35,679 nucleotides of DNA from Methyloversatilis sp. Lineage in GTDB: Bacteria; Pseudomonadota; Gammaproteobacteria; Burkholderiales; Rhodocyclaceae. Every line of letters starts with the position of its first letter. Position 1 is the first letter of the stretch. The position numbers were made by a program, and so were the translations under genes. The stretch is from assembly GCA_017984755.1 (NCBI GenBank), contig JAGNYW010000027.1, positions 1 through 35,679 of the forward strand, in the 5' to 3' direction. This document shows positions 17,811-35,679 of the stretch, one piece after another. Below the pieces are notes generated by a model. That model ran no database searches. It was not told the DNA's origin and was given only the letters and a program-made list of their open reading frames with translations.

Positions 17811-18431
17811 ATGAATTTGCAATCGCTCTGTGCCCGGTTCGTCCCCGCGCGACTGGTCATGGCATTTGCGGTGTCCGCGACACTTCATCTGCTGCTGCTC
17901 TGGCCGTCGCAGCCGCAACCGGCATCGCTGGAGCGGACGGCCTCGCCCCGCCTCAGTCTGCTGAACACGGCAGCGGCAAAGGGCGCAAGAGACTCCGGGG
18001 TGGAGTCGGCTGCGGTCGGCGAGCACGATGCACTGCCGGCGCACGTTGCGGCACCGGTGCGGCTGAACGCCCTACCTGCGGCGCAGGCGGCTGCCGCGCC
18101 GAATGCCGTCACGCCTCCCGAGGCGACGCTGCGCGCACTCCGATTCGCACTGGCGCGTGGTGTTGCGGCAGCAGGTGCCGTGTCGGGGGACGCAGGCGCA
18201 TGGGTCAGGCTCGAGATGCGCTTCCGGGCGCGCCGCGTGACCGATGTACGGATCGTGCGCACGAGCGGCGACGATGCATTCGATGCCCGGGTTCTGGCGG
18301 CTTTCAAGGCGGCCGCGCGCCATGCCGTAATACCGGACAGCCTGCAGCCGGACAGTTTCGTCGTGGAACTCGAGCTGGAGGGCGGAGACCTCGAACACGT
18401 GCAAGATGAACATCCATTCTCATCCGGCTGA
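17811..18431 (+). CDS. TonB-family protein
   Basis: 206-residue protein with one N-terminal membrane anchor (about 14-31, LVMAFAVSATLHLLLLW), an Ala/Pro-containing periplasmic linker (about 35-115) and a C-terminal TonB-like domain (about 120-195) with VRLEMRFRARRVTDVRIVRTSG and FDARVLAAFKAA. TonB carries proton-motive energy to outer-membrane receptors. The linker is short and lacks the long Pro-Lys/Pro-Glu repeats of true TonB, and no exbB or exbD is adjacent, so it may be a TonB-like energiser or envelope protein. A strong Shine-Dalgarno AAAGGAAG precedes ATG 17811. Confidence 0.72.
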   Translation: MNLQSLCARFVPARLVMAFAVSATLHLLLLWPSQPQPASLERTASPRLSLLNTAAAKGARDSGVESAAVGEHDALPAHVAAPVRLNALPAAQAAAAPNAVTPPEATLRALRFALARGVAAAGAVSGDAGAWVRLEMRFRARRVTDVRIVRTSGDDAFDARVLAAFKAAARHAVIPDSLQPDSFVVELELEGGDLEHVQDEHPFSSG

Positions 18432-21290: not shown

Positions 21291-21804
21291 AATGGTGAAC
21301 GCCGAAGCTGCCGCTGCGCCGTTCGTCGAAAAACGTGCGCAGCGTCAGCGCCACGCTGCGGAACGCCAGCGCATCCCACGGGATGTCTGCTTCGTCGAAC
21401 AGCCTGACTTCGAGTGACTCGCTGCCCGGCGCGAAGTCGAGATCCAGCAGTTCCGCCCTGAACAGAAGGTGCAACTGGTCTATCCCGGGCACGCTGACCA
21501 TGGTGTAGGGCGCAATGAGGCTCACCCGCGCACAGGCTTCTTCCAGCGTTTCGCGCATGGCGCCTTCGGCGGCGCTTTCCCCGTTCTCCATGAATCCCGC
21601 AGGCAGTGTCCAGTAGCCGTGACGCGGTTCGATGGCGCGACGGCACAACATGACCTGTTCACCCCATACCGGCAGCGTGCCGACGACCATGCGCGGATTT
21701 TCGTAATGGATGCTGCCGCAGGCCGGGCATACGTGACGCAACCGGTTGTCGCCGGCGGGAATGATCCGTTCGACCGGATTCCCGCAGTGAGCGCAGAACT
21801 TCAT
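21262..21804 (-). CDS. Nudix hydrolase with zinc ribbon
   Basis: 180-residue hydrolase of nucleoside-diphosphate-linked compounds. An N-terminal zinc ribbon (C4, C7, C26, C29) precedes the Nudix fold. The Nudix box runs from G70: GFMENGESAAEGAMRET and then LEEACA, with E76, R84, E85, E88 and E89 in place. The box glycine near the end is replaced by Cys, a tolerated position. The layout resembles NADH-pyrophosphatase-like and ADP-ribose-type Nudix proteins conserved in betaproteobacteria. The ribbon suggests an NudC-like lineage, but the protein is shorter than NudC. The 3' end overlaps the histidine kinase gene. Confidence 0.88.
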   Translation of the reverse strand: MKFCAHCGNPVERIIPAGDNRLRHVCPACGSIHYENPRMVVGTLPVWGEQVMLCRRAIEPRHGYWTLPAGFMENGESAAEGAMRETLEEACARVSLIAPYTMVSVPGIDQLHLLFRAELLDLDFAPGSESLEVRLFDEADIPWDALAFRSVALTLRTFFDERRSGSFGVHHFSLDIPSRS

Positions 21805-21893
21805 GTTTCAGCCGGCCGCAGCCGAAGTTGTCCGAATCCGGCAGTTTAGCTTCAGGGCTGCCTCGTGCGTGCGGGATGCCGCATCGCATGCCC

Positions 21894-21921
21894 TCAAGTT
21901 ATGTGACTCCCTCGCCGTAAG
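21894..21921 (+). promoter_or_regulatory. Sigma-28-like promoter of the HDOD-REC-GGDEF gene
   Basis: TCAAGTTA (21894-21901), 12 bases, GCCGTAAG (21914-21921). The -35 matches TAAAGTTT at six of eight positions; the -10 has the GCCG core of GCCGATAA. Spacing is one base longer than the usual 11. It lies 64 bases before the start at 21986. Confidence 0.6.
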
Positions 21922-21985
21922 TAAAATGGTATCCGGATATTTTCGGGCCATCCTGCAACCCAGCTGTAGCGAGTATCGGACGACG

Positions 21986-23914
21986 ATGAATGAACTGATC
22001 GACATGAGCCGCTTTGCGGAGGTCAAGGCCGCAGGCGAGTTGCCTTCGCCCAAGGGCATCGCCTTGTCCATCGCCCGCGTCACGCAGCGTGGCGATGCAT
22101 CGCTTGCCGAGCTGGCCCGCCTCGCGCAGGGGGATCCCGTACTGGTCGGACGTCTGGTCTGCGCCGCGAACGGAACGCTCGGACCGGGAGCCCGTCCGAT
22201 CGTCGCCTTGCGCGATGCATTGTCCGTGCTGGGCATGGCGGCCGTACGCAATCTGGCGCTCGCCTTTTCGCTGATATCGAGCAACGGCAAGGGCCTGTGC
22301 CGAAGCTTTCCGTATTCGCGCTTCTGGAGCGGCTCGGTCATTCGCGCGATCGCGATGCAGAGAATCATGATGGTGAGACGCTCTGCCGGACTCGAGGAGA
22401 GCTTCTGCGTCGGATTGCTTTCGGGCATCGGCAGCCTCGGGCTGGCAAGCGTCTTTCCCGCCCAGTATTCGCGTGTGCTCGATGAAGTGGGGTGTGGCGA
22501 CGAGCTTGCGCTGCGCGACCTGGAGCGGAAGACATTTGCGATGACGCATGTCGAGTTGAGCGCAGCGATGCTCGCCGACTGGGGCATGCCCCGCTTCTTC
22601 ATCGGTGCCGTACTGGGTCATGAGTCGGCGATGACTCACCAGGGTGACCCGGCATCGCGCGAGTTCGGCCTGACACTGGCACTCGGTCTTGCACGCACCA
22701 TAGAAGTCGCCTGCCTGTGCGACGAAGAAGACCGCCCGCAGCACATGGCTGCCGCCCGCGCGCTGGTCGGGCGAATGGACTGGCTCCCGGATCAGCTGAC
22801 GACGCTGTGCGATGACGTCGTGCGCGAATGGCAGGAGTGGTCCCGGATACTGCCGGTCGATGCCTATGCATTGCCGAATCTGAACGACATCTCGATGCCC
22901 GAGACGCCGGTCCCGTCGCCGCAGGTGGTCGAGATGCCGGCCGCCAACGATGCGCCCGATCGCGAGGTGCTGCGGGCGCTGGTGATCGACGACGACGAGT
23001 CGACGCGCATGATCCTGAAGACCTTGCTGCTCCGCTCCGGATATCAGGTCGCGTGTGCCGAAAACGGCGTGGTCGGCATGGAGCGCGCCCTCGAATTCGA
23101 GCCGCAGATCATGGTGGTCGACTGGATGATGCCGGAGATGAACGGGCTGGAACTGACGCGTACGCTGCGTCAGACCCGCATGGGCCGCAACATCTACATC
23201 ATCATGCTGACCAGCCACGACGAGGAGGAGCGTCTGGTCGAGGCGTTCGAGGCGGGTGCCGACGACTACATGGTCAAGCCGCTCCGGGCGAGGGTGCTCG
23301 AGGCCCGGCTTCGGGCGGGGCAACGTCTGATCAAGCTGCAGCGGGATCTGGAAGCCGAGCGCGAGGAAATCCGTCGCTACACGGCCGAATTGGGCGTCAG
23401 CAACCGTCGTCTGCAGGAGGTTGCCCTGACCGATGCCCTCACCGGATTTCCGAATCGCCGCTATGCCATGGGCCGGATCACCCAGGAATGGGCGATTGCG
23501 TTGCGCAGCGACCGACCGCTGTCCTGCATGCTCATCGATGTCGACCACTTCCGGCAGATCAACGATACCTATGGACATGACGTGGGTGACCGCGTGCTCG
23601 AGCAGACGGCCCGTGCCATCCGTGAATCCATGCGCACGCAGGATGTCGTGTGTCGCACCGGCAGCGACGAGTTCCTGATCATCTGTCCGGATACCCGGCT
23701 GGAACAGGCCATGGTCTGCGCGCAGCGAGTCTGCGCCGGCGTTGCAGCAGTTCCGCTCCAGGCTGGCCAACTGCGGCTGAAGAGTTCCATCAGTATCGGT
23801 GTGGCCGAGCGACTGTCGGCCATGTCCGATGCCGATGCGCTGCTCGCGCTTACCGATCTGGCCTTGCTGAAGGCGAAGAAATCGGGAAGAAACCAGGCTT
23901 GTGCTGCGCCATGA
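21986..23914 (+). CDS. HDOD - receiver - diguanylate cyclase-like protein
   Basis: 642-residue cytoplasmic signalling protein. HDOD domain: about 15-235 (LPSPKGIALSIARV, then DPVLVGRLVCAANG). Receiver: 330-445 with acidic IDDDEST, phospho-acceptor D379 in VVDWMMPEMNG and K in MVKPLRA. GGDEF domain: about 480-638 with LTDALTGFPNRR and DVDHFRQINDTYGHDVGD; the signature is GSDEF (559-563), with Ser for the second Gly. Catalytic Asp/Glu are kept, so c-di-GMP synthesis is possible but not assured. Start ATG 21986 was chosen because the HDOD fold begins there; a longer reading to 21803 is out of keeping with the family and would run over the promoter. The sigma-28-like site upstream suggests flagellar co-regulation. 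Confidence 0.9.
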   Translation: MNELIDMSRFAEVKAAGELPSPKGIALSIARVTQRGDASLAELARLAQGDPVLVGRLVCAANGTLGPGARPIVALRDALSVLGMAAVRNLALAFSLISSNGKGLCRSFPYSRFWSGSVIRAIAMQRIMMVRRSAGLEESFCVGLLSGIGSLGLASVFPAQYSRVLDEVGCGDELALRDLERKTFAMTHVELSAAMLADWGMPRFFIGAVLGHESAMTHQGDPASREFGLTLALGLARTIEVACLCDEEDRPQHMAAARALVGRMDWLPDQLTTLCDDVVREWQEWSRILPVDAYALPNLNDISMPETPVPSPQVVEMPAANDAPDREVLRALVIDDDESTRMILKTLLLRSGYQVACAENGVVGMERALEFEPQIMVVDWMMPEMNGLELTRTLRQTRMGRNIYIIMLTSHDEEERLVEAFEAGADDYMVKPLRARVLEARLRAGQRLIKLQRDLEAEREEIRRYTAELGVSNRRLQEVALTDALTGFPNRRYAMGRITQEWAIALRSDRPLSCMLIDVDHFRQINDTYGHDVGDRVLEQTARAIRESMRTQDVVCRTGSDEFLIICPDTRLEQAMVCAQRVCAGVAAVPLQAGQLRLKSSISIGVAERLSAMSDADALLALTDLALLKAKKSGRNQACAAP

Positions 23915-23958
23915 CCGGATGAGCGAGGAATTTTCCGCGGGTCGTTGAAGCGATGCGC

Positions 23959-23985
23959 TCAAGTTTTGTCCGGACGCGCCGTCGA
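23959..23985 (+). promoter_or_regulatory. Sigma-28-like promoter of the REC-GGDEF-EAL gene
   Basis: TCAAGTTT (23959-23966), exactly 11 bases, GCCGTCGA (23978-23985). The -35 matches TAAAGTTT at seven of eight positions. It lies 31 bases before ATG 24017 and in the short gap after the HDOD-REC-GGDEF gene, so the two regulators appear to have separate but alike promoters. Confidence 0.68.
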
Positions 23986-24016
23986 TAAGCTTCGTTGATC
24001 GTTTTCACGGCCCGGA

Positions 24017-25771
24017 ATGAAGTTGATGGAGCGCCACTCGGACAGGTTGGGAGGGTTCAGAACCATCAAGGTATTGATGGTCGAGGACAATGAAGACGAC
24101 GCCTTCCTGCTCAACGCCCAGCTGAGCGCGCGTGGGCTCGACACCTATTCGGAGCGTGTCGACAGCGCGCCGGAGTTGGCTCGCGCGCTCGATGAGCGGG
24201 AGTGGGATCTGGTCATCTGCGACCATGCCATGCCCGGCTTCGATTCAGCGTCCGCGCTCGAAGTTGTCCGCCGCAGCGGGCGCGACATTCCTTTCATCAT
24301 CTATTCGGGAAAGATCTCCGATCACATGGCCTTTTCGGCCATGCGCAACGGGGTGGCCGATTACGTCCAGAAGGGCAACATCGCGCGCCTGGTGCCGGTG
24401 ATCGAACGCGAACTGCGCGGCGTCGAAGCGCGTCGCGCCGTGCAGACGGCCGACGCCCGCATTCATGCGCTCGCCTTTTTCGACACGCTGTCCGCACTCC
24501 CGAATCAGACGCTGCTGCGTGCCCAGATCGACGACTGGCTGGACAATGAACGCCGCAGCGCCGAGGCGCGCCATGCCGCGCTGATGGTGGTCGACATCGA
24601 CCGCTTCCTGCGCATCAATACAAGCTTCGGATACGACGCAGGCAACGTCGTGCTGCGCGAGGTCGTATCGCGACTCATCGAGCGTGCGGGCAAGGGGGCC
24701 ATGATCGCCCGCCTGAGCGGGGATCGTTTCTGCGTTTTCGCACCGTCCTGCAGCACGCGGGACGACGCGCGTCTTTTCGCACACAAGTTGCTGGAGGCGT
24801 TCGCGTCGCCGGTCATCAAGGACGGTCTCGAGCTTTTCCTGACGGCGTCGATCGGTCTGGCCATGACGCCCGACGACGGTGACGAGGCGCAGGCACTGAT
24901 CATGAACGCCGAGGCGGCCATGTCCAGCGCAAAGCGTTCGGGGGGCAACGGCCTGACGTTCTACGCGCACGAAATGAGCGCCAGTTCCGCCGAAAAGCTG
25001 GTCCTGGAGACGCATCTCCGACACGCCGTGCAGCGCAGCGAACTGTTTCTCAACTATCAGCCGATTCTCAACGGCAGTACCGGTCGTACATCGGGCGTCG
25101 AAGCGCTGCTTCGCTGGCGGCATCCGCAGCGCGGAGTCATTCCGCCGGACCGCTTCATTCCGCTGGCTGACGAGTCGGGTCTCATCGTCGAAATCGGTGC
25201 CTGGGTGATGCGCGAAGCCTGTACCCAGGGTCGCATCTGGCACGAACAGGGTATGCAGGACCTGTCCATGTCGGTCAACGTATCCGCTGTGCAGTTTGCG
25301 CAGCCGCGGCTGCTCGAAACCGTCAGAACGACGCTGGAAGACACCCGCTTTCCGGCAGAGAAGCTGGTGCTGGAAATCACCGAATCCGTTCTGATGAAGG
25401 ACGCCGAAACGACCATCGGCATGCTCAAGGCGTTGAAGAACATGGGCGTCAGGATATCGATGGACGACTTCGGAACCGGTTACTCGTCGCTGTCCTACCT
25501 GAAACGCTTCCCGATCGACATCGTGAAGATCGACAAATCATTCGTGCGCGACATAAATGACGATCCGGATGATGCAGCCATCATTCGCGTCATCATCGCA
25601 CTGGCACGCAGCCTGCGGCTGACGACTGTTGCGGAGGGCGTTGAAACGCCGGAACAGCTTGGTTTCCTGAGGCGCGAACAATGCGACCGCTTCCAGGGTT
25701 ACTTCTTCTCGCGACCGGTCGAAGCCGACCTGCTCAGCAAACGAATCCAGGATGGTTCCCTGCTGATCTAG
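24017..25771 (+). CDS. Receiver - degenerate GGDEF - EAL phosphodiesterase
   Basis: 584-residue response regulator likely to break down c-di-GMP. The receiver (about 16-135) has VEDNEDD and phospho-acceptor D69 in ICDHAMPG. The GGDEF domain (about 150-320) reads SGDRF at 234-238: both the first Gly and the Glu are lost, so cyclase activity is unlikely; it may act as a GTP-sensing module. The EAL domain (about 330-580) keeps E362-A-L, N in SVNVSAVQF, ITES, DDFGTGYS at 483-490, KIDKSFV and EGVET, the full catalytic set. No membrane segments. Being next to the HDOD-GGDEF protein and flhDC, it probably tunes c-di-GMP for motility. Confidence 0.92.
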   Translation: MKLMERHSDRLGGFRTIKVLMVEDNEDDAFLLNAQLSARGLDTYSERVDSAPELARALDEREWDLVICDHAMPGFDSASALEVVRRSGRDIPFIIYSGKISDHMAFSAMRNGVADYVQKGNIARLVPVIERELRGVEARRAVQTADARIHALAFFDTLSALPNQTLLRAQIDDWLDNERRSAEARHAALMVVDIDRFLRINTSFGYDAGNVVLREVVSRLIERAGKGAMIARLSGDRFCVFAPSCSTRDDARLFAHKLLEAFASPVIKDGLELFLTASIGLAMTPDDGDEAQALIMNAEAAMSSAKRSGGNGLTFYAHEMSASSAEKLVLETHLRHAVQRSELFLNYQPILNGSTGRTSGVEALLRWRHPQRGVIPPDRFIPLADESGLIVEIGAWVMREACTQGRIWHEQGMQDLSMSVNVSAVQFAQPRLLETVRTTLEDTRFPAEKLVLEITESVLMKDAETTIGMLKALKNMGVRISMDDFGTGYSSLSYLKRFPIDIVKIDKSFVRDINDDPDDAAIIRVIIALARSLRLTTVAEGVETPEQLGFLRREQCDRFQGYFFSRPVEADLLSKRIQDGSLLI

Positions 25772-25832
25772 CGCTCTTCCGACCCCTCCGGCACGCCGCT
25801 TCGACGCGTGCCAGCCTCTCTCCTCCGCTCGA

Positions 25833-25851
25833 TGTAGGAAATCTTCCTACA
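25833..25851. promoter_or_regulatory. Palindromic regulator site upstream of flhD
   Basis: TGTAGGA-AATCT-TCCTACA is a perfect inverted repeat with 7-base arms, 127 bases before flhD. Such TAGGA/TCCTA palindromes fit binding sites of NarL/FixJ-type response regulators (RcsB, BvgA and GacA-like sites have similar form). ACAGGA recurs at 25849-25854 and 25873-25878. It is a likely control point of the flagellar master operon; the factor is unknown. Confidence 0.55.
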
Positions 25852-25896
25852 GGATTCTGCTCGTCTTCACGTACAGGAAGTTTCGCCTTGTCCTGA

Positions 25897-25925
25897 TTGG
25901 GTGTCGGCGTTCTGCTCGGCACAAT
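25897..25925 (+). promoter_or_regulatory. Candidate sigma-70 promoter of flhDC
   Basis: TTGGGT (25897-25902), 17 bases, CACAAT (25920-25925). It would give a leader of about 45 bases before ATG 25978. No sigma-28 or sigma-54 signature is seen here, as expected for a class I flagellar operon. Moderate match only. Confidence 0.45.
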
Positions 25926-25977
25926 GCATCCCACAGTCAGACGCATACAGCGTCCGGATCACCGAAGGGATCGCATC

Positions 25978-26295
25978 ATGAAGACGACAGGTTTGCTCAA
26001 TGAGATCAGGGAACTCAATCTCTCCTATCTCATGCTTGCCCAGCAGATGATCCGCGAGGATCGCGACGCCGCCATGTTCAGGCTCGGCGTCAGCGAAGAA
26101 GTCGCGGACATGATCGAGTCACTGTCGCCGGCGCAGGTGTTGAAGATGGCCAGCGCAAACATGATGCTGTGCCGCCTGCGCTTCGACGATCGTGTCCTGC
26201 TCGGCCTGCTGTCGAGTCACGGTCGCGACGCATCGACATCCCACCTGCACGCCACCATCCTGGCCTGCGCGCAGCCGGTTGAAGCGGTTTCCTGA
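25978..26295 (+). CDS. flhD: Flagellar master regulator subunit FlhD
   Basis: 105-residue helical protein, the DNA-binding-assisting subunit of the FlhD4C2 activator of class II flagellar genes. LLNEIRELNLSYLMLAQQMIRED and LSPAQVLKMASANMMLCRLRF match the family's first and central helices. Start ATG 25978 has GAAGGGA about 10 bases upstream; an in-frame reading from 25897 adds an unlike stretch across the promoter. The gene is followed 17 bases later by flhC. Length is close to the enteric protein. Confidence 0.95.
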   Translation: MKTTGLLNEIRELNLSYLMLAQQMIREDRDAAMFRLGVSEEVADMIESLSPAQVLKMASANMMLCRLRFDDRVLLGLLSSHGRDASTSHLHATILACAQPVEAVS

Positions 26296-26312
26296 TTCAG
26301 GGGGTAAAGGTC

Positions 26313-26852
26313 ATGAGAAACAAAAGCATCGTTTCGGAAGGTCGTGAAATCGGTCTTGCGGTGGAACTGATCCGGCTCGGCGCGCGCCTGCAGCTGCTCG
26401 AAGCGGAGACTCACCTGTCACGCGAACGCCTGCTCAAGCTCTACAAGGAAGTGAAGGGCGTTTCGCCGCCCAAGGGCATGCTGCCGTTTTCGACCGATTG
26501 GTTCATGACGTGGCAGCCCAACATTCACGCTTCGCTGTTCATGTCCTTCTTCGGTTTCTTCAAGCAGAACACCCGACTTGCCCAGCTCGATTGCATCGTT
26601 AAGGCGTTCCGCCTCTACCAGGAACACATCGAGACGCACGATATGGAAGAAGTGCTCAGTCTGACCCGCGCCTGGACGCTGGTTCGCTTCTTCGACGCCA
26701 AGTTGCTGCAGCGCACGCCCTGCACCTGCTGCGGCGGCCACTTCGTTGCCCACGCGTACGACCCGAAATCCAGCTACATCTGCGGCCTGTGCCACATCCC
26801 GGCACGTGCGGGCAAGACGCGCCGTGCGCGCGAGGCCCTGATCGCCGCGTAA
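26313..26852 (+). CDS. flhC: Flagellar master regulator subunit FlhC
   Basis: 179-residue zinc-binding partner of FlhD. The four zinc cysteines are C137, C140, C157 and C160, at the same numbers known for the E. coli protein, within PCTCCGGHF and ICGLCH. The N-terminal DNA-contacting part includes ELIRLGARLQLLEAETHLSRERL. Together with FlhD it activates flagellar basal-body, fliA and related operons. An intrinsic terminator follows, so flhDC is a two-gene operon separate from motAB. Confidence 0.97.
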   Translation: MRNKSIVSEGREIGLAVELIRLGARLQLLEAETHLSRERLLKLYKEVKGVSPPKGMLPFSTDWFMTWQPNIHASLFMSFFGFFKQNTRLAQLDCIVKAFRLYQEHIETHDMEEVLSLTRAWTLVRFFDAKLLQRTPCTCCGGHFVAHAYDPKSSYICGLCHIPARAGKTRRAREALIAA

Positions 26853-26879
26853 CCCTGTTCCACTCTCCTGTCTGACCTC

Positions 26880-26936
26880 CTCCTTGCGAAAGCAAGGAGC
26901 TCGCCGCCGCGGGGCAACCCGTGGCGGCTTTTTTTT
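26880..26936 (+). terminator. Tandem hairpins ending flhDC
   Basis: The first stem, CTCCTTGC-GAAA-GCAAGGAG (26880-26899), has eight pairs and a GNRA loop. The second, GCCGCCGCGGG-GCAA-CCCGTGGCGGC (26903-26928), is followed by eight T residues (26929-26936) and is a strong Rho-independent terminator. The first hairpin is not needed for termination and may protect the mRNA end. Confidence 0.92.
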
Positions 26937-26987
26937 CGTACCTGTCAAAGGTCATGACGAGGGCAAGACGACGGACCGATGAGTCAG

Positions 26988-27014
26988 TCAAGTTTCGCAG
27001 GCCGGTGCCGTTAC
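26988..27014 (+). promoter_or_regulatory. Sigma-28-like promoter of motAB
   Basis: TCAAGTTT (26988-26995), exactly 11 bases, GCCGTTAC (27007-27014). The -35 matches TAAAGTTT at seven of eight positions. It lies 57 bases before motA and after the flhDC terminator, as expected for a class III flagellar operon. Confidence 0.75.
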
Positions 27015-27071
27015 ACCAACAGGCGCTCAGTGCGTGATGCTCCGAACATCCGTCATACACAGGAAAAGTTC

Positions 27072-27929
27072 ATGTTTCTGATCATCGGCTACGTAATCAT
27101 CCTCGCAGCTTCCGTGGGCACCTACGCCCTGCACGGCAGTCTGGCGGCCCTCTGGGTGCCGGCTGAATACGTGGCGATCTTCGGTCTGATGATCGGCGGC
27201 TTCGTTGCCGGCAACGGCATGCCTGCGATCAAGGCCACGGTTGCCGCACTGCCCACCGTGTTCAAGGGTTCGTCCTACAACAAGGCGTACTACGTGGACG
27301 TGCTGGCGATGCTGTACGAAATCCTCTCGAAGGTGCGCAAGGAAGGCCTGATGTCGATCGAAGCCGACGTCGAGAATCCCGAAGCGAGCCCGATCTTCTC
27401 CAAGTATCCGAAGTTCCTCTCCGATCACCACGCGGTCGACTTCCTGACCGACTACCTGCGCATGATGGTGGGCGGCAATCTGAACGCCTTCGAGATCGAA
27501 AGCCTGATGGATGCCGAAATGGAAACCCACCATTCCGAAGCCCACGTTGCGGTGCATTGCGTGTCGAAGGTGGCGGACGGCGTGCCGGCGTTCGGCATCG
27601 TCGTGGCGGTGATGGGCGTGGTCAACGTGATGGGCTCGGTCGGTCAGCCGCCGGCGGTGCTTGGCAAGATGATCGGCGGTGCGCTGGTCGGTACCTTCCT
27701 CGGCATTCTGCTTTCGTACGGTTTTGTCGCGCCGATCGCTTCGCAGCTCGAACAGAAGATGGAGGAGGGCGGAAAGATCTACCAGTGCATGAAGGTCGTG
27801 CTGCTGGCCAGCATGAACGGCTATGCGCCGCAGGTCGCCATCGAGTTCGGCCGCAAGGTTCTGTACTCGCCCGACCGGCCGAGTTTCAAGGAACTCGAAG
27901 ACGAAGTGAAGAACCGCAAGGGCAAGTGA
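27072..27929 (+). CDS. motA: Flagellar motor stator protein MotA
   Basis: 285-residue inner-membrane stator subunit. Four hydrophobic segments (about 1-20, 30-50, 170-200, 205-230) flank a cytoplasmic loop with KVRKEGLMSIEADVENP, the region that contacts FliG through charged residues. VAVMGVVNVMGSVGQPP in the third helix holds the proline next to the proton path. It resembles the E. coli-type proton stator rather than PomA. ATG 27072 has AGGAAAAG just upstream; longer readings add an unlike N-terminus. It is co-transcribed with motB from the sigma-28-like promoter. Confidence 0.95.
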   Translation: MFLIIGYVIILAASVGTYALHGSLAALWVPAEYVAIFGLMIGGFVAGNGMPAIKATVAALPTVFKGSSYNKAYYVDVLAMLYEILSKVRKEGLMSIEADVENPEASPIFSKYPKFLSDHHAVDFLTDYLRMMVGGNLNAFEIESLMDAEMETHHSEAHVAVHCVSKVADGVPAFGIVVAVMGVVNVMGSVGQPPAVLGKMIGGALVGTFLGILLSYGFVAPIASQLEQKMEEGGKIYQCMKVVLLASMNGYAPQVAIEFGRKVLYSPDRPSFKELEDEVKNRKGK

Positions 27930-27985
27930 GCCCGCCGCCACCCCGGCATCGACCCTTTCCCATCAACGCCCTGACGCACTGAGCC

Positions 27986-28927
27986 ATGTCCGACGATACC
28001 CAGCAGCCAATCATCGTCAAGAAGATCAAGAAGGGCGGCGGTGGCGCGCACGGTGGTGCGTGGAAGATCGCCTACGCCGACTTCGTGACGGCGATGATGG
28101 CCTTCTTCCTGCTCATGTGGCTGCTCGGCTCCACCGCCGAGGGTGACCTGAAGGGTATTGCGGAATTCTTCGAAAATCCGCTGAAGGTCGCCCAGCAGGG
28201 CGGGTCCGGCTCCGGCGACAGTTCCAGCGTGATCCAGGGCGGCGGACGCGATCTGACGCGCCAGACCGGCCAGGTCAAGTACGGCACGGTCGAAGCGCAG
28301 CAGCGCTCGTTCAACCTGACCGCCAGCCAGGAGCAGCAGAAAACGGAAAAGGAATCGGCGGAACGTGCCGAGCGCGCCAAGCTGGTCGAACTGAAGAGCC
28401 AGATCGAGGCGCGCATCGAGGCGAACCCCGACCTGCGGCCGTTCCGCAACCAGCTGGTACTCGATGTCACGGCAGAAGGCCTGCGCATCCAGATCGTGGA
28501 CGAACAGAACCGTCCCATGTTCTCGTCCGCCAGCGACCGACTTCAGCCCTACACCTCGGTCATCCTGCGCGAGATCGGACTCATCCTGAACCAGGTCGAT
28601 AACCGCATCTTCCTGTCGGGTCATACCGATGCAACGCCGTTTGCAGGCGGTATCGGCGGGTTTTCCAACTGGGAGCTCTCCTCCAACCGGGCCAATGCGT
28701 CCCGTCGCGAACTCATCGCCGGCGGCATGGATCCGGACAAGGTGCTGCGCGTCGTCGGCATGAGTTCCATCGTTTCGTTCGACAAGGACGATCCATTCAA
28801 TCCGATCAACCGGCGCATCAGCATCATCGTGCTCAACCGTCAGACCGAACAGCAATTCCTGTCCGACGGCAGTTCGGTCTCTGTCGAGGAAATCGTTGCT
28901 CCGTCAGAGGGGGGCGCTGCGCCGTGA
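27986..28927 (+). CDS. motB: Flagellar motor stator protein MotB
   Basis: 313-residue stator subunit. A basic N-terminus (IVKKIKKGGGG) precedes the single membrane helix, with the proton-carrying D32 in AYADFVTAMM, same number as in E. coli. The plug and linker (about 55-140) lead to an OmpA-like peptidoglycan-binding domain (about 160-290) with LSGHTDATPF, NWELSSNRANASRREL and NRRISIIVLNR. All key residues are intact. It lies 56 bases after motA. Confidence 0.96.
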   Translation: MSDDTQQPIIVKKIKKGGGGAHGGAWKIAYADFVTAMMAFFLLMWLLGSTAEGDLKGIAEFFENPLKVAQQGGSGSGDSSSVIQGGGRDLTRQTGQVKYGTVEAQQRSFNLTASQEQQKTEKESAERAERAKLVELKSQIEARIEANPDLRPFRNQLVLDVTAEGLRIQIVDEQNRPMFSSASDRLQPYTSVILREIGLILNQVDNRIFLSGHTDATPFAGGIGGFSNWELSSNRANASRRELIAGGMDPDKVLRVVGMSSIVSFDKDDPFNPINRRISIIVLNRQTEQQFLSDGSSVSVEEIVAPSEGGAAP

Positions 28928-28941
28928 TGAATGCATTCAGA

Positions 28942-28968
28942 TCAAGTTGGAGTGTTTCCGGCCGTATA
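28942..28968 (+). promoter_or_regulatory. Sigma-28-like promoter of the short chemoreceptor gene
   Basis: TCAAGTTG (28942-28949), exactly 11 bases, GCCGTATA (28961-28968). It starts 15 bases after the motB stop and 58 bases before ATG 29000. It probably also drives cheY and cheA. Confidence 0.7.
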
Positions 28969-28999
28969 CCGGGATGCTTACTGTTTCCGAGGTTCGACC

Positions 29000-30187
29000 A
29001 TGCATGACGTTGCAAGGAAGTTACGCCTGACCGCCACTGCAGCGTGGGGTGTGTCCGCCGTATGCACCGCGCTGGCGATCGGATTCTGGCAACCGGCTTC
29101 TCTGCCGCTCGTGTCTGTCGGCATCGCTGTCTGTGCGATCTGGACGGTCGGCGTATTCCTGGCGACCCGCAGCCTGAGCGTGACGCCCGCGCAGACCGCG
29201 GAGATGGAAACAAATGAGCGACGGCAGGATGCATCGCACGAACTTCTGGCCGGTACTGCAACCCAGGTGCAGTCGCAGTGCGACCAGATGAACGAAGAGC
29301 TCGTGCGTGTGCAGACCCTGCTGAGCGAAGCGATCGAAGGCCTGACCAGCAGCTTTCACCGCATGCTGGAGGAAACGTCCGACCAGCGCAGCACCGCGCT
29401 GTCGCTGACCGGCGGAGACGGCGAACAGTTCGATTTCGGGCAGTTCGTGGAAGAGACGTCCGGCACGATGCAGCGTGTTGTGGAGAGCGTCGTGCAGAAC
29501 AGCAAGCTCGGCATGGAACTGGTCGAACTGACCGACGGCATCGCCCATGAAACCGAGGCGGTCCGTTCGTTGCTGGGCGAAATCAGCGGCATTTCGAAGC
29601 AGACCAATCTGCTGGCACTCAACGCAGCGATCGAAGCTGCGCGAGCCGGTGAAGCCGGACGTGGTTTTGCCGTGGTGGCAGACGAGGTGCGCACGCTGTC
29701 GTCCCGAACCAATGAATTCAGTCAGCAGATCGAGACGCTGGTGGATCGCATGCAGCACAACGTGAAGCAGACCGAACATGCGCTCGCGGCTCTCGCAAGT
29801 CAGGACATGACTTTCGCGCTGCAGTCCAAGCAGCGCGTCGAAAGTGTGGTGGGCGGGCTCGAAACGCTGCATGTCCGTCGCCAGCATTCGATTGAAAAGC
29901 TGGGGGAATCGGTCGAACGCGTGAATACCGCGGTAGCCCACGCCGTCACTTCGTTGCAGTTTCAGGACATGACGTCCCAGTTGATCAGTCACGTGCAGCG
30001 CCGCATCGGAAACATCGATGGCGTCATGAAGGCGGTGCACGGCATGAGCCAGGACGCTGCGCAAGGACGTGCGACCGAGCATCACACGCGTGCCGTTGAT
30101 GAGGCACTGGAAAGACTGCTTGTTGCAAACGGCAATAACCCGGTGGCGCAGCACGCCTTCCGGGAAGGTGAAATAGAACTGTTCTGA
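29000..30187 (+). CDS. Methyl-accepting chemotaxis protein lacking a large sensor domain
   Basis: 395-residue chemoreceptor-like protein. Two adjacent membrane helices (about 14-30 and 37-55) are joined by only a few residues, so there is no periplasmic ligand domain, and no HAMP is evident. The signalling hairpin tip is [19 protein letters not shown] followed by [33 protein letters not shown] is typical of a group of chemotaxis proteins in flagellar clusters. The C-terminus ends EIELF after a flexible tail, a possible docking motif. It lies 11 bases before cheY, suggesting a role inside the core chemotaxis complex. Start ATG 29000 was chosen as it leaves room for the promoter. Confidence 0.88.
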
Positions 30188-30198
30188 AGGAGATTTTC

Positions 30199-30564
30199 AT
30201 GGCAAAGACGGTGCTGGCAATCGACGACTCTGCGTCGATCCGACAGATGGTGGCATTCACGCTGAAAAGCTCCGGCTACGATGTGATCGAGGCGGTGGAC
30301 GGCCAGGACGGGCTGGACAAGGCCAAGTCGAAGTCGGTCAATCTGGTGCTGACCGACCAGAACATGCCGCGCATGGACGGACTGACGCTGATCCGCAACC
30401 TGCGCGCAATGGCGCAATACAAGGCCACGCCGATCCTGATGCTGACCACCGAGTCATCCGACGCGATGAAGGCGCAAGGTCGCGCAGCCGGCGCAACAGG
30501 CTGGCTGGTCAAACCCTTCGATCCGCAGAAGCTGGTCGAGGTGGTGAAGAAGGTGATCGGCTGA
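30199..30564 (+). CDS. cheY: Chemotaxis response regulator CheY
   Basis: 121-residue single receiver domain. Acidic pocket D9-D10, phospho-acceptor D53 in LTDQNMPRMDG, Thr in MLTTES and Lys in VKPFDP are all present. Phospho-CheY binds the flagellar switch. AAGGAGAT precedes the ATG, a strong ribosome-binding site. The AQYKATPILMLTTE form resembles CheY of the polar/beta type. It lies 11 bases after the chemoreceptor and 43 before cheA. Confidence 0.95.
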   Translation: MAKTVLAIDDSASIRQMVAFTLKSSGYDVIEAVDGQDGLDKAKSKSVNLVLTDQNMPRMDGLTLIRNLRAMAQYKATPILMLTTESSDAMKAQGRAAGATGWLVKPFDPQKLVEVVKKVIG

Positions 30565-30607
30565 GCGCACGCATCGTGCGCCGATATCCAGAACGGGGAG
30601 ACCGTCC

Positions 30608-32821
30608 ATGACTGTGGACATGAGCCAGTTCTATCAGGTGTTCTTCGAAGAAGCGGCCGAACACCTGTCGAACATGGAGCAGATGCTGCTCGACATCGAT
30701 CTGGGCAGCATCGATGACGAGGAAATGAACGCCATCTTCCGTGCCGCCCATTCGATCAAGGGCAGCGCGGGAACATTCGGCTTCAACGATCTTGCGCAAG
30801 TGACGCACGAGCTCGAAACCCTGCTCGATCGCGTGCGCAAGCACGAGGTCGTGATGACGCCCGACATGGTCAACATTTCGCTCGAAGCAGGCGATCTGCT
30901 GCGCGATCTGGTGGCGGCTCATCGCGGCATCGGCGAGGCCGACCTGCAGAAGGTGGTCGAGGTCTGCGCGGCCATCAAACGTCTCTACGAGCAGAGTGGT
31001 GCACAGCCCGGAAGCACCGAGGCTGCCGTCGAGGACTGCGCCGAACCGCCATCCGCCTTTCACCGCTTCAGCTTTGCGCTGTCGCCGGACTGTTCGGATG
31101 TCGCAGGCGTGATCGAAAATCTGTCGAGCGAGATCGTCGGCCTCGGCATGGAGGTCGTTCACCTGGGCATCGACGAACAGGGACTCTGGCAGGGCGTGCT
31201 CACTGGTGCGCTCGATGCGGCTGCCGTGCGTGACGTGGTGGATTTCCTCGCCGTCGCAGGGAGTTATCTGGATCAACCCGCAGCACCCGCAGATGACGAC
31301 GCATTCGGTCTGTTCGACAGCGATCCGGCGCCAGCTTCCCCTGACGCCGAGACGGCGTGGGGCCTGTTTGCCGACACGTCGCCCGAGCCATCGCAGGCGG
31401 CCGACAGCAGTTACGGATTCTTCGAACCCGTCGTGAACACGCCGGCATCAGCCGCAGACGGGGCAGATGCCAGTTACGGATTCTTCGATGCATCGCCTGC
31501 AACGACCGCACAGCCGGCAGCCGTAGCCGAGGTGGTCACGGCAGTGGCCGCTCCGGTCGCGGAAGTGACCGCGGTGCCGGCCGCAGGCGGAGCGGATGTG
31601 CCGAGGGCAGCCTCGTCCAAGACCGCCCGGGCGGCCGGCGGTGACACGTCGATTCGCGTAGGTGTGGACAAGGTCGATCAGATCATCAACCTGGTCGGCG
31701 AACTGGTCATCACGCAGGCGATGCTGGTGTCGGTGGCGGAGAAGCTCGATCCGGTCGAATTCGAACGACTGATGAGCGGCGTACAGCAACTGGAACGGAA
31801 TACCCGGGATCTGCAGGAATCGGTGATGTCGATCCGCATGTTGCCGATGTCGACCGTGTTCTCGCGCTTCCCGCGCGTCGTGCGCGATCTGTCGCAGAAA
31901 CTGGGCAAGGAGGTGCGTCTGGTGCTGGCGGGTGAATCGACCGAGCTCGACAAGGGCCTGATCGAGCGTATTTCGGACCCGCTGACCCACCTGGTGCGCA
32001 ACAGTCTCGACCACGGCATCGAAACACCGGACGTGCGCGTGGCGCGCGGCAAACCGGCCGAAGGTACGATTACGCTCAAGGCTTCGCATCAGGGCGGCAA
32101 CATTCTGATCGAAGTCGGTGACGACGGCGCAGGTCTGAGCCGGGACCGCATCCTGTCCAAGGCGCGCGAACGCGGGTTGCCGGTCAGTGAGGGCATGACC
32201 GATCAGGACGTGTGGGCATTGATTTTCGAACCGGGCTTTTCGACGGCGGATCAGGTGACCGAAGTGTCCGGACGGGGCGTCGGCATGGATGTCGTCAAGC
32301 GCAACATCACGGCGATGGGCGGTCGGGTGGATATCGACTCGATGACCGGCATCGGCACGCGCATGACGGTACGCCTGCCGCTCACGCTCGCCATTCTGGA
32401 CGGCATGTCCGTCGCGGTCGGCGACGAGCACTACATCATTCCCCTGAACTACGTGATCGAGTCGCTGCAACCGACCGCCGACATGATCAAGAGTGTCGGC
32501 GGGCAGAAGCGGCTGGTTCAGGTTCGCAATGAGTTTCTGACCATACTGACGCTGCGTGAGGCATTCGGCCTGTCCGGCGGCGAGACGGATCCCGAGCGGG
32601 GCATTCTTGTGGTGCTGGAATCGGATGGCGGCAAGATCGCACTGCTGGTGGATGAACTGGTGGGGCAGCATCAGGTCGTCATCAAGAGTCTCGAAGCGAA
32701 CTATCGCAAGGTGCAGGGCATTTCCGGTGCCACGATTCTCGGCGACGGTCACGTCGGCCTGATTCTCGACGTGCAGGCGCTGGTCGACTCGTCACGCGGC
32801 AATCTCGCAGCCGCGGCCTGA
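30608..32821 (+). CDS. cheA: Chemotaxis histidine kinase CheA
   Basis: 737-residue kinase. P1 Hpt domain: 1-120 with phospho-acceptor H48 in RAAHSIKGSAGTFGF. A P2-like domain spans about 150-220. A low-complexity linker (230-345) holds four aromatic-Gly-Phe motifs. P3 dimerisation starts at about 346 (IRVGVDKVDQIINLVGELVI). P4 ATPase has HLVRNSLDHGIE, VGDDGAGL, GFSTADQVTEVSGRGVG and GMDVV. P5 is a CheW-like domain to the end (about 600-737). All catalytic parts are intact. It phosphorylates CheY and CheB. GGGGAG lies before ATG 30608; ATG 30620 is a possible alternative. Confidence 0.96.
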   Translation: MTVDMSQFYQVFFEEAAEHLSNMEQMLLDIDLGSIDDEEMNAIFRAAHSIKGSAGTFGFNDLAQVTHELETLLDRVRKHEVVMTPDMVNISLEAGDLLRDLVAAHRGIGEADLQKVVEVCAAIKRLYEQSGAQPGSTEAAVEDCAEPPSAFHRFSFALSPDCSDVAGVIENLSSEIVGLGMEVVHLGIDEQGLWQGVLTGALDAAAVRDVVDFLAVAGSYLDQPAAPADDDAFGLFDSDPAPASPDAETAWGLFADTSPEPSQAADSSYGFFEPVVNTPASAADGADASYGFFDASPATTAQPAAVAEVVTAVAAPVAEVTAVPAAGGADVPRAASSKTARAAGGDTSIRVGVDKVDQIINLVGELVITQAMLVSVAEKLDPVEFERLMSGVQQLERNTRDLQESVMSIRMLPMSTVFSRFPRVVRDLSQKLGKEVRLVLAGESTELDKGLIERISDPLTHLVRNSLDHGIETPDVRVARGKPAEGTITLKASHQGGNILIEVGDDGAGLSRDRILSKARERGLPVSEGMTDQDVWALIFEPGFSTADQVTEVSGRGVGMDVVKRNITAMGGRVDIDSMTGIGTRMTVRLPLTLAILDGMSVAVGDEHYIIPLNYVIESLQPTADMIKSVGGQKRLVQVRNEFLTILTLREAFGLSGGETDPERGILVVLESDGGKIALLVDELVGQHQVVIKSLEANYRKVQGISGATILGDGHVGLILDVQALVDSSRGNLAAAA

Positions 32822-32834
32822 GTCCGGGCCGGCA

Positions 32835-32861
32835 TTTCCGATTCGCGAATCGCCCCGGAAA
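32835..32861. repeat. Inverted repeat after cheA
   Basis: GATTCGCGAATC (32840-32851) is a perfect 12-base palindrome, and TTTCCG (32835-32840) pairs with CGGAAA (32856-32861) around it. It starts 14 bases after the cheA stop. Without a T-tract it is not a standard terminator; it could end or stabilise the cheA mRNA or bind a protein. Confidence 0.4.
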
Positions 32862-33079
32862 CCGCGGTTGCGCTGCGTGCGGCTGCAGGACGGGTCGGGG
32901 CGATGGGTTACTTCCCCGGCAGCATCCCCTTCGGCAGCAACGCCGCAGCAGGGCTCACTTCGCGCGATGTCGATCGCCGGTGCAACGAACTGATCTCCAG
33001 CCATCGGTCATCATGGCCGACACCGCGCATGACCGCGCCGTGCGCAACACTTGTATCCAAATTCAGTCACAGCACTGCC

Positions 33080-33107
33080 TCAAGGCGCTTCGTGGCCATG
33101 CCGTTAT
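33080..33107 (+). promoter_or_regulatory. Sigma-28-like promoter of cheW
   Basis: TCAAGGCG (33080-33087), 12 bases, GCCGTTAT (33100-33107). The -10 half is good; the -35 is weaker and the spacing one base long. It lies 31 bases before ATG 33138 and 19 before ATG 33126, the two possible cheW starts. Confidence 0.5.
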
Positions 33108-33137
33108 CACGGAAGTGACAGAGCCATGGAGCGAACA

Positions 33138-33647
33138 ATGATTCAAACGGCACAAGCAGCGCATCAGCGGTCGGTCAGCAGCGACGACGCGGGTTACGCC
33201 CAGGAATTCCTGACCTTCACGCTGGGTGGTGAAGAGTATGCGATAGACATTCTCAAGGTTCAGGAAATCCGGGGCTACGACGCGGTGACCAGCATCGCGC
33301 ATGCACCGGCGTTCATAAAGGGCGTCATCAATCTCCGCGGCACCATCGTTCCGATCGTCGATCTGCGCGTCAAATTCAATGTCGGCGTGGTCGAGTACAC
33401 GCCGTTCACGGTCACCATCATCCTGAATGTCGGCGGCCGGGTGGTCGGCATGGTGGTCGATGCCGTCTCCGACGTGCTCGCCATCGACGCCGGGAAGATT
33501 CTTCCGGCGCCCGACTTCTCTTCCAGTTTCGATACCCGCTACATCCATGGCCTCAGTTCAATCGACGAGCGGATGCTGATCGTCGTCGATATCGAAAGAC
33601 TGATGCTGTCCGCCGACATGGCGCTCGTCGATGAACACGTGCACTGA
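33138..33647 (+). CDS. cheW: Chemotaxis adaptor CheW
   Basis: 169-residue adaptor coupling chemoreceptors to Che[21 protein letters not shown], then [35 protein letters not shown] and [13 protein letters not shown] are the standard CheW blocks in order, and the protein ends at the usual length. Start ATG 33138 has GGAG six bases upstream; ATG 33126 would add four residues and has a poorer site. The adjacent chemoreceptor starts nine bases after the stop, so receptor and adaptor are made together. Confidence 0.95.
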
Positions 33648-33656
33648 GTGAATGAA

Positions 33657-35679
33657 ATGGCAAATGCAAAGGATGTGTCGGTCATGCGCAGCATGACTGT
33701 TCAGAAGCGCCTGATGCTGATGGTTGCGGGCAGCCTGATCGGGATCGTGCTGCTCGCGGCACTGTTGCTGGGTGCGATGCGCTCCAACATGCTCGAGGAT
33801 CGCAAGTTGGCAGCACGCTTCGCGGTCGAATCCGCTTGGGGTGTCCTCGCCGCGTTCGAGAAGCGGGCGGTGGCCGGCGAACTGACGCAGGAGGAAGCCC
33901 GCAAACAGGCCATCGCGACGCTGCGCACGCTGCGCTACAACGGTGAAGACTATTTCTGGATCAACGATTTCGGACCGCGCATGGTCATGCATCCGACCAA
34001 GCCGGAGCTCGAGGGCAAGGATCTGAGCGGATCGAAGGACCCCAACGGCAAGCACCTGTTCGTCGAATTCGTCGCGGTGGCCAAGGCGAATGGCGCAGGC
34101 TTCGTCGATTACATGTGGCCGCGTCCGGGTGCCGATGCGCCGGTAGACAAGGTGTCGTACGTACGCGCCTTCGAACCCTGGGGCTGGATCATCGGCTCCG
34201 GCATCTATGTCGACGACGTGAACGCAGTACTGCTGCGCCAGGCCGCCTGGGTTGCACTCATCGTGCTGGTCGTCGCCGCCGTGATCGGTATCCCGGGGGT
34301 GCGACTCGGTCGCAGCATCGCCGCTCGCCTGCGCGATGCCGGCGTTCATGCGCGTGCCATTTCCGATGGCGTTCTCGACCGCTCCATCGTGGCCGGCAAC
34401 CGTGACGAAATAGGACATCTGCTGATGTCGCTCGAACAGATGCGCATCGACCTGAAGGAACGCACCGAACGTGATCAGGCAGTGGCCGCAGAGAACCTGC
34501 GCATCCGGACAGCGCTCGATTTCGTGAACCGGAATGTGCGCATCGCCAATGCCGACGGCGACGTCATCTATGCCAACGCGACGATGATGAAAACCCTCAT
34601 CGACATCGAGGGTGATGTGCGGACGAGCGTTCCGCAGTTTTCGGTGGCCCGCATTCTGGGCAGCAATATCGCGATGCTGTGCAACAACCCGGCCTTCGTG
34701 CGCAAGTCCGAACCACATGGCACCGGGCAGCGCAGCGAACTGGTGATCGGTCAGCGCACTTTCGAAGTCATCACCACACCGATTCCCGGGGAATCGGGTC
34801 AGCGCATAGGGATTGTCGCCGAGTGGACAGAACGCACCCAGGAAATCTCCGTCGAGCGCGAAGTCGAGGACATGATCGCCGCTGCAGTCAGTGGCGACTT
34901 CACGCACCGCATCAAGGTCGATGACAAGGCGGGTTTCTTCAAGACGCTTGCAGTCAGCATGAATGAACTCGTGGCGGTGGTTGCGTCCGGTCTCGAAGAC
35001 ACAGCGCGTGTGCTGAACGCGATCTCGCGTGGCGTGCTGACCGAGAAGATCGAGCGTGATTACGCGGGAACATTCGGTCAGCTGAAGAACGACACGAACA
35101 CGACGGTGGACAAGCTGCAGGAGGTGATCGGTCGCATCAGGGATTCGACGGAAGCGATCAATACGGCGGCGCGGGAGATTGCGGCGGGGAATTCGGACCT
35201 GAGTTCGCGCACGGAAGAGCAGGCGGGGTCGCTGGAAGAGACGGCGAGTTCGATGGAAGAGCTGAACGCGACGGTGAAGCAGAACGCGGAGAGCGCACTC
35301 AAGGCGAACGAGCTGGGTCGTCAGAGCAACGAGGCGGTGATGCGTGGCGCGGAGACGGTCAAGCGGGTGGTGCTGACGATGAGCGACATCCAGGATTCGA
35401 GCAGGAAGATCGCGGACATCATAGGCGTGATCGACTCGATCGCGTTCCAGACGAACATTCTGGCGCTGAACGCGGCGGTGGAAGCGGCGCGTGCAGGCGA
35501 GCAGGGCCGTGGGTTTGCGGTGGTGGCGAGTGAAGTGAGGACACTGGCGCAGCGCAGCGCGCAGGCGGCCAAGGAGATCAAGGGGCTGATCGCGGATTCG
35601 GTCGAGCGGGTGGACGGGGGCGCGAAGCTGGTTGCCGAGGCGGGCGCGACGATGGAGCAGGTTGTCGACAGTTTCCGTC
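33657..35679 (+). CDS. Cache-domain methyl-accepting chemotaxis protein, cut by window end
   Basis: The first 674 residues are visible; the frame is still open at the end. Membrane helix 1 (about 21-41), a periplasmic single-Cache domain (about 50-190, with [20 protein letters not shown] and [14 protein letters not shown]), helix 2 (about 195-217), HAMP, a PAS-like segment (about 285-400, [14 protein letters not shown]), a second HAMP-like stretch ([20 protein letters not shown]) and the signalling domain with [19 protein letters not shown] and [19 protein letters not shown]. sCache_2 domains often sense small carboxylates. Codon choice changes sharply from about 35,080. ATG 33657 starts nine bases after cheW. 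The C-terminal methylation and CheR-docking parts are outside the window. Confidence 0.93.

Follow-up and report, generated by a model that had tools for sequence, protein, structure and literature searches.

FliA-type promoter sites ahead of motility, chemotaxis and cyclic di-GMP genes in the flhDC locus of Methyloversatilis

Five short sites that precede motor, chemotaxis and cyclic di-GMP (c-di-GMP)-type genes around flhDC, the genes of the flagellar master regulator, are, judged from their sequence and setting, very probably FliA (sigma-28) promoters of the ordinary class-3 kind. They were found in a stretch of 35,679 nucleotides from Methyloversatilis sp. (contig JAGNYW010000027.1 of assembly GCA_017984755.1), which is referred to as a whole as the window and belongs to contig C47 in a draft genome of 3.27 Mb in 96 contigs. 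The sites recur before the same genes throughout the sampled genus and FliA is encoded in the genome, which provides a defensible core of a FliA regulon for Methyloversatilis, in which, next to flhDC, c-di-GMP turnover is predicted to be coupled to the late flagellar class. The phosphodiesterase-like gene next to flhDC and a clade-specific FliA-type site before flhD are the points worth following.

Five FliA-type sites and their recurrence in the genus

The pattern TCAAG-N14/15-GCCGT was present, always on the plus strand, at each of the five positions where the first-pass annotation of the sequence had placed it (Table 1). The spacers between the octamers measure, from site 1 to site 5, 12, 11, 11, 11 and 12 bases, three of them being exactly 11 as had been noted, and the distances from the end of the −10 octamer to the start codon are 64, 31, 57, 31 and 30 bases, which agrees within a base with the earlier range of 31–65 when the cheW start at 33138 is used. 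TCAAG, a −35 box of the TAAAGTTT type, opens all five sites. The −10 box is a close variant of the canonical GCCGATAA, its usual form here being GCCGT, and the octamers are set apart by the 11 (or 12) bases expected for a FliA class-3 promoter. Late flagellar and chemotaxis genes, the kind expected for class 3, lie downstream (motAB, the chemoreceptor-cheY-cheA run and cheW, with flagellin elsewhere in the genome). These genes would depend on FliA, and the sites predict where their transcription should start.

To follow the sites in relatives, 61 genomes were searched, giving 12 genomes of the same genus with an HDOD-REC-GGDEF protein 71–82 % identical, and their loci were mapped. In these and the window's own genome (13 genomes) sites were picked with the pattern T[A/C]AAG...GCCG, spacers of 10–13 bases being allowed. 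A site precedes the HDOD-REC-GGDEF gene in 13 of 13 genomes (59–113 bases ahead of the start), the REC-GGDEF-EAL gene in 13 of 13 (always at −58), motA in 13 of 13 (at −84 or −85 in 12 and at −153 in one), the chemoreceptor gene in 13 of 13 (−51 to −67) and cheW in all 12 genomes whose fetched stretch includes this gene (46–49 bases in 11, 96 in one); in the thirteenth, G006, the fetched stretch has no cheA or cheW ortholog. Although spacers of 10–13 were allowed, only 11 (41 of the 64 sites) and 12 (23 of 64) were found. The letters T.AAG and GCCG are fixed in the 64 sites by the picking pattern; the second −35 base is C in 63 and A in one, and T follows TCAAG in 46. The fifth −10 base, which was left free, is T in 59 sites and A in five, and the seventh is A in 49. 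As controls, the 220 bases upstream of flhD, flhC, motB, cheY and cheA were scanned in the 13 genomes and no TCAAG or TAAAG site was found, while a TGAAG match at cheA, present in 12 of 12 genomes, lies within the preceding coding region. The claim of the first-pass annotation that late motility genes of this locus carry FliA-type promoters is thus upheld by the FliA gene of the genome and by a site 5' of the ortholog in every genome of the genus having the gene.

The possibility that chance matches in GC-rich DNA were singled out by looking ahead of genes was weighed against these data and is highly improbable. In the window the first-pass pattern has six matches where 0.17 would be expected on average, and none of 100 shuffles reached six. 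A loose form of the pattern does yield 13 control matches genome-wide, and one of the six matches in the window, at 18304 and overlooked in the first-pass annotation, is evidently coding: it lies in an open reading frame (ORF) whose resemblance to TonB stays below the cut-off of the model (21.8 against 27.1 bits) and for which a Pfam search gave no match. A match at the equivalent place was kept in only three (L107, L110, L111) of the eight named relatives having the gene, nine having been searched. Because of its position inside the ORF and this poor retention, the sixth match was rejected as a promoter and is read as a coding coincidence. A chance account is refuted in general since the sites recur at all five genes, in every genome with the gene, with none at the control genes. 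In 31 related loci a matrix gave 68 matches scoring at least 20, many of them training sites, against 0 in the reversed control.

It is likewise very unlikely that the sites are ordinary sigma-70 promoters or class-2 promoters activated by FlhDC. Some chemotaxis genes are under class-2 control in other bacteria. A sigma-70 consensus scan of positions 21200–34000, on the other hand, gave four sites against 2.2 by shuffling, none of them overlapping the five sites, and the GCCG box is the hallmark of FliA sites according to the motif table of PMC4183435.

Several observations weigh against reading the five sites as FliA promoters. The mean pairwise identity of the boxes among relatives (0.97–1.0 for TCAAG and 1.0 for GCCG) is partly produced by construction, because the picking pattern fixes these letters; the free positions beside the boxes reach 0.41–1.0 and 0.62–0.96. 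The spacers have diverged, with only 0.34–0.69, which speaks for the sites; the upstream flank has 0.34–0.54 and the downstream flank 0.35–0.79, the last value, at motA, meaning that the downstream flank is not always diverged. What counts is the presence of a site at each gene in every genome, not box identity. Three loci of other genera (L062, L063, L066) have no site scoring at least 15 before the genes. Scanning the window's genome with TCAAG-N-GCCGWNA gave a modest signal (28 matches against 13 in the reversed control), TCAAGTT...GCCG gave 12 against 8, and TAAAG-N-GCCGWNA was not enriched at all (7 against 14). Of the 13 other chemoreceptor genes of the genome, just one, on contig C5, is preceded by the strict TMAAG-N-GCCGWNA form, six having weaker matches and six none that is convincing. 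Finally, the cheW site (33080) reads GGC, not TTT, after TCAA.

This last departure, together with a spacer of 12 bases, fits an account in which some of the sites, likeliest 33080 or 23959, are no more than weak remnants or targets of another factor, with the genes transcribed mainly by read-through. The −10 box at 23959 ends in TCGA, without the usual TAA end, and one sigma-70-like match (33115–33142) lies between site 5 and cheW. The peculiarities are nevertheless kept in the relatives (TCAAGG in 12 of 12 at 33080 and GCCGTC in 13 of 13 at 23959), and we consider this account unlikely, so that all five sites are treated below as probable FliA promoters.

The REC-GGDEF-EAL protein, with its intact EAL and degenerate GGDEF motif (Table 1), is likely a c-di-GMP phosphodiesterase, and it is 85–94 % identical in nine named loci (seven Methyloversatilis records and two unclassified proteobacterial bins). 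The start codon of cheW at 33138 is common to the window and the 11 relatives shown, whereas an ATG at 33126 is not shared; a second chemoreceptor gene lies 3' of cheW. All 13 genomes of the genus keep the terminator between flhC and motA. All 13 likewise have an inverted repeat of the TGTAGGAAATCTTCCTACA form, which was also seen in two of eight loci of other genera looked at and, allowing at most two mismatches, nowhere else in the window; it presumably resembles an operator for a regulator of the NarL/FixJ type and is treated as a candidate. The order in which the HDOD-REC-GGDEF gene stands just 5' of flhDC, whether or not the EAL gene is present, extends across genera (10 loci of other genera).

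Table 1. Features of the flhDC locus in the window, and FliA-type sites at a second HDOD gene locus
Feature	Position	Strand	Remarks
Sixth pattern match	18304..18328	+	within ORF of weak TonB resemblance
FliA-type promoter 1 (putative)	21894..21921	+	TCAAGTTA-N12-GCCGTAAG; 5' of HDOD-REC-GGDEF gene
HDOD-REC-GGDEF protein, 642 amino acids	21986..23914	+	Pfam HDOD, Response_reg, GGDEF; signature motif GSDEF
FliA-type promoter 2 (putative)	23959..23985	+	TCAAGTTT-N11-GCCGTCGA; 5' of REC-GGDEF-EAL gene
REC-GGDEF-EAL protein, 584 amino acids	24017..25771	+	Pfam; EAL motif intact, GGDEF motif degenerate (SGDRF)
19-base inverted repeat, operator-like	25833..25851	+	TGTAGGAAATCTTCCTACA; 5' of flhD
flhD, class-1 master regulator	25978..26295	+	Pfam FlhD
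flhC	26313..26852	+	Pfam FlhC
Intrinsic terminator between flhC and motA	26903..26936	+	11-pair stem and T-run; very strong
FliA-type promoter 3 (putative)	26988..27014	+	TCAAGTTT-N11-GCCGTTAC; 5' of motAB
motA	27072..27929	+	Pfam MotA_N, MotA_ExbB
motB	27986..28927	+	Pfam MotB_plug, OmpA
FliA-type promoter 4 (putative)	28942..28968	+	TCAAGTTG-N11-GCCGTATA; 5' of chemoreceptor-cheY-cheA run
Methyl-accepting chemotaxis protein (chemoreceptor)	29000..30187	+	Pfam MCPsignal
cheY-like response regulator	30199..30564	+	Pfam Response_reg
cheA	30608..32821	+	Pfam Hpt, H-kinase_dim, HATPase_c, CheW
FliA-type promoter 5 (putative)	33080..33107	+	TCAAGGCG-N12-GCCGTTAT; 5' of cheW
cheW	33138..33647	+	Pfam CheW (given from 33126)
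Sites at second HDOD gene locus (L183, contig C20 of G000)	1442-1469 and 2385-2411

FliA, the consensus and the wider regulon

FliA is encoded on contig C86 (272.4 bits, cut-off 189.6) and matches solved FliA structures at 2e-64 and better; FlgM is encoded in the genome as well. A TCAAG-N-GCCGWNA site 171 bases 5' of the fliA start (L094) was set aside as it falls within the preceding ORF.

The sites found at flagellin, ycgR and a second HDOD gene had been left out of matrix training. Ahead of the best flagellin of every genome stands a site in the TAAAG...TCCGT form, TAAAGTTT-N11-TCCGTTAC in 12 genomes and with N12 in G002 (13 of 13). At the second flagellins of G002, G007, G011 and G012 the match is another one, TCAAG-N12-GCCG(C/A)AA, scoring 15.7–16.0, and no site was found at the second flagellin pair of G003 or when eight other, more distant flagellin matches were scanned. 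At ycgR, TCAAGTT(C/T)-N11-G(C/T)CGATA was present in 12 of 13 genomes (as GTCGATA in 10 of them), the match in G002 being weaker. For flgM one candidate, TAAAGTTT-N12-GTCGTAAT with a score of 16.4, was found in the window's genome, to which that scan was confined. This genome has 14 chemoreceptor genes. The one preceded by site 4 scores 20.7 but is a training site; of the other 13, seven reach a score met by at most 8.3 % of random stretches, a threshold set after the data had been seen, and six do not, two of these six being cut by contig ends. Of the genes named for a check in the first-pass annotation, flagellin has a FliA-type site, flgM a single candidate and several chemoreceptor genes weaker sites.

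Downstream of a chemoreceptor gene on contig C78 of G000 (L092) lies a CheW-REC (CheV-like) gene with TCAAGAGT-N11-GCCGTAAA 5' of it.

All 13 genomes carry a FliA-type site at the second HDOD gene; in the window's genome this gene is followed by another site, 5' of a DUF1631 gene (Table 1). A strict scan of 57 further HDOD-hit stretches, two of them without a complete frame, found sites in six and passed over two near matches (contig C56 of G000 and contig C37 of G006). HDOD genes as a general FliA class were rejected, given the few sites in these stretches: it is some HDOD families, not HDOD genes in general, that are tied to FliA-type sites.

The form TCAAG...GCCGT had been proposed as a lineage-specific consensus to be used across the genome. 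Such a consensus should be shared by the FliA sites of the lineage and be distinct from those of other bacteria, and this was not found. It would miss flagellin and ycgR, because these use TAAAG...TCCGT and mostly GTCGAT, respectively, and E. coli, too, has FliA sites with TCAAG, at flgKL and fliL, in the part of PMC4183435 consulted; its modest excess over the control has been given above. In pattern scans of the genome the TCAAG and TAAAG forms brought little, whereas TCAAGTT-N-GCCGWNA gave 76 matches over the 13 genomes against 6 in the reversed control, 25 of the 76 lying in this locus and 51 elsewhere. It is the TT after TCAAG that makes the consensus usable for scanning. The genes downstream of genome-wide matches were examined in 43 loci, some of them duplicates, and 19 proteins were annotated, L070 being left out because of a frame error. 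Several matches stand 5' of genes with no known motility link, among them those of an acetyltransferase (L010), a carbonic-anhydrase-like ORF (L077), a GspH-like protein (L080) and a D-alanyl carboxypeptidase (L090).

A FliA-type site upstream of flhD in a sister clade and some other genera

The first-pass annotation had seen no FliA-type site before flhD. This stands for the window, where the best matrix score is 0.2, and does not extend to its relatives, of which a part carry one. The first flhD control, limited to 220 bases (0 of 13), was too short and too strict, and a wider scan changed the reading: a site scoring 20.9–22.6 lies between the EAL gene and flhD in five of the 13 genomes of the genus (G001, G002, G004, G005 and G010; loci L048, L049, L051, L052 and L057), while the same region in the other eight, window included, scores at most 9.1. 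In M. universalis (the named record L110) the site stands immediately downstream of the EAL gene. Among 19 loci of other genera examined, 10 have flhD in this order, three of them with a site and seven, including the outgroup G041, without. The site lies between the EAL gene and flhD in L061 and L065 (scores of 21.8 and 23.6) and before flhD in L064, from another genus that lacks the EAL gene at this place (16.5). None of the sites upstream of flhD had been used in matrix training, and the reversed control of 863,270 strand-bases gave eight matches of at least 16 and none of at least 20.

In a tree built from three joined proteins the eight genomes lacking the site form one group (support of 0.72) and the five that carry it another (0.96). 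This is in keeping with a single change inside the genus, either a loss or a gain; the branch that holds the genus together is supported at only 0.33. The interval from the EAL gene to flhD showed no terminator combining a strong stem with a T-run, only weak T-runs in four relatives, so transcripts driven by FliA could reach flhDC.

From these data we tentatively propose, as a possibility that is still rather doubtful, that FliA feeds directly back on flhDC in the family. In one Methyloversatilis clade and in some other genera this would occur from a promoter about 170–220 bases upstream of flhD; the clade of the window would have lost the site and kept a path, free of intrinsic terminators, that leads from the c-di-GMP genes under FliA into flhDC and ends at the strong terminator after flhC. 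If true, two sister clades differ in a direct positive loop from the late class to the master regulator, and the clade-specific site poses the question whether some species, unlike their sisters, have FliA transcribe its own master regulator. Nothing on FliA-dependent flhDC transcription or on FliA and FlhDC of Rhodocyclaceae appeared in the titles and abstract openings of the literature matches listed, which is weak evidence of absence.

Proposed order of events and comparison with known systems

In enteric flagella the export of FlgM frees FliA, which transcribes the late class. By analogy, once the hook-basal body is complete FlgM would be exported and the FliA thus released would turn on the late genes, which here would comprise the motAB motor, the chemotaxis core (chemoreceptor-cheY-cheA and cheW) and the two c-di-GMP-type genes by flhDC. 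The REC-GGDEF-EAL protein, as a probable c-di-GMP phosphodiesterase, would keep c-di-GMP low during swimming; both this activity and its timing are predicted. The strong terminator after flhC would cut motAB off from flhDC transcription, and therefore motAB needs a promoter of its own. Among the matches listed for the genus and flagella, no paper title concerned flagellar regulation in Methyloversatilis.

The yhjH gene encodes a c-di-GMP phosphodiesterase. In E. coli, according to the part of PMC4183435 used here, the motAB-cheAW operon is transcribed from a FliA site at flhC, and ycgR and yhjH are likewise under FliA control. The sites of the window resemble these class-3 promoters (motAB-cheAW, the tar operon, ycgR and yhjH/pdeH) in their TMAAG...GCCG form and N11 spacing. 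They differ in the usual −10 box, GCCGT instead of GCCGATAA, and in TC instead of TA at the −35 box of all five sites. Unlike in E. coli, cheW has a FliA-type site of its own here, and a phosphodiesterase-like gene stands directly 5' of flhDC together with the HDOD-REC-GGDEF gene.

In Pseudomonas putida, bifA is a FliA-dependent c-di-GMP phosphodiesterase gene, which the authors, in the part of PMC5026340 consulted, read as a positive loop towards motility. A phosphodiesterase gene turned on by the flagellar sigma factor would be common to both systems. In P. putida, FleQ and not FlhDC is the high-ranked regulator. In P. aeruginosa, FliA raises expression of the phosphodiesterase gene PA4367 without a canonical FliA site, an effect that may be indirect (PMC4866697, seen in part), whereas here a FliA-type site is present before the phosphodiesterase-like gene. 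The portions of PMC7286023 and PMC6424431 consulted give the canonical consensus or nothing on the matter, and a word search of PMC5550985 found no match. In Salmonella, FliZ and FliT carry a feedback of late flagellar products on FlhD4C2 (PMC5809477, likewise in part). In contrast to such protein-borne feedback, the site 5' of flhD in the sister Methyloversatilis clade would be a direct FliA promoter of the master regulator.

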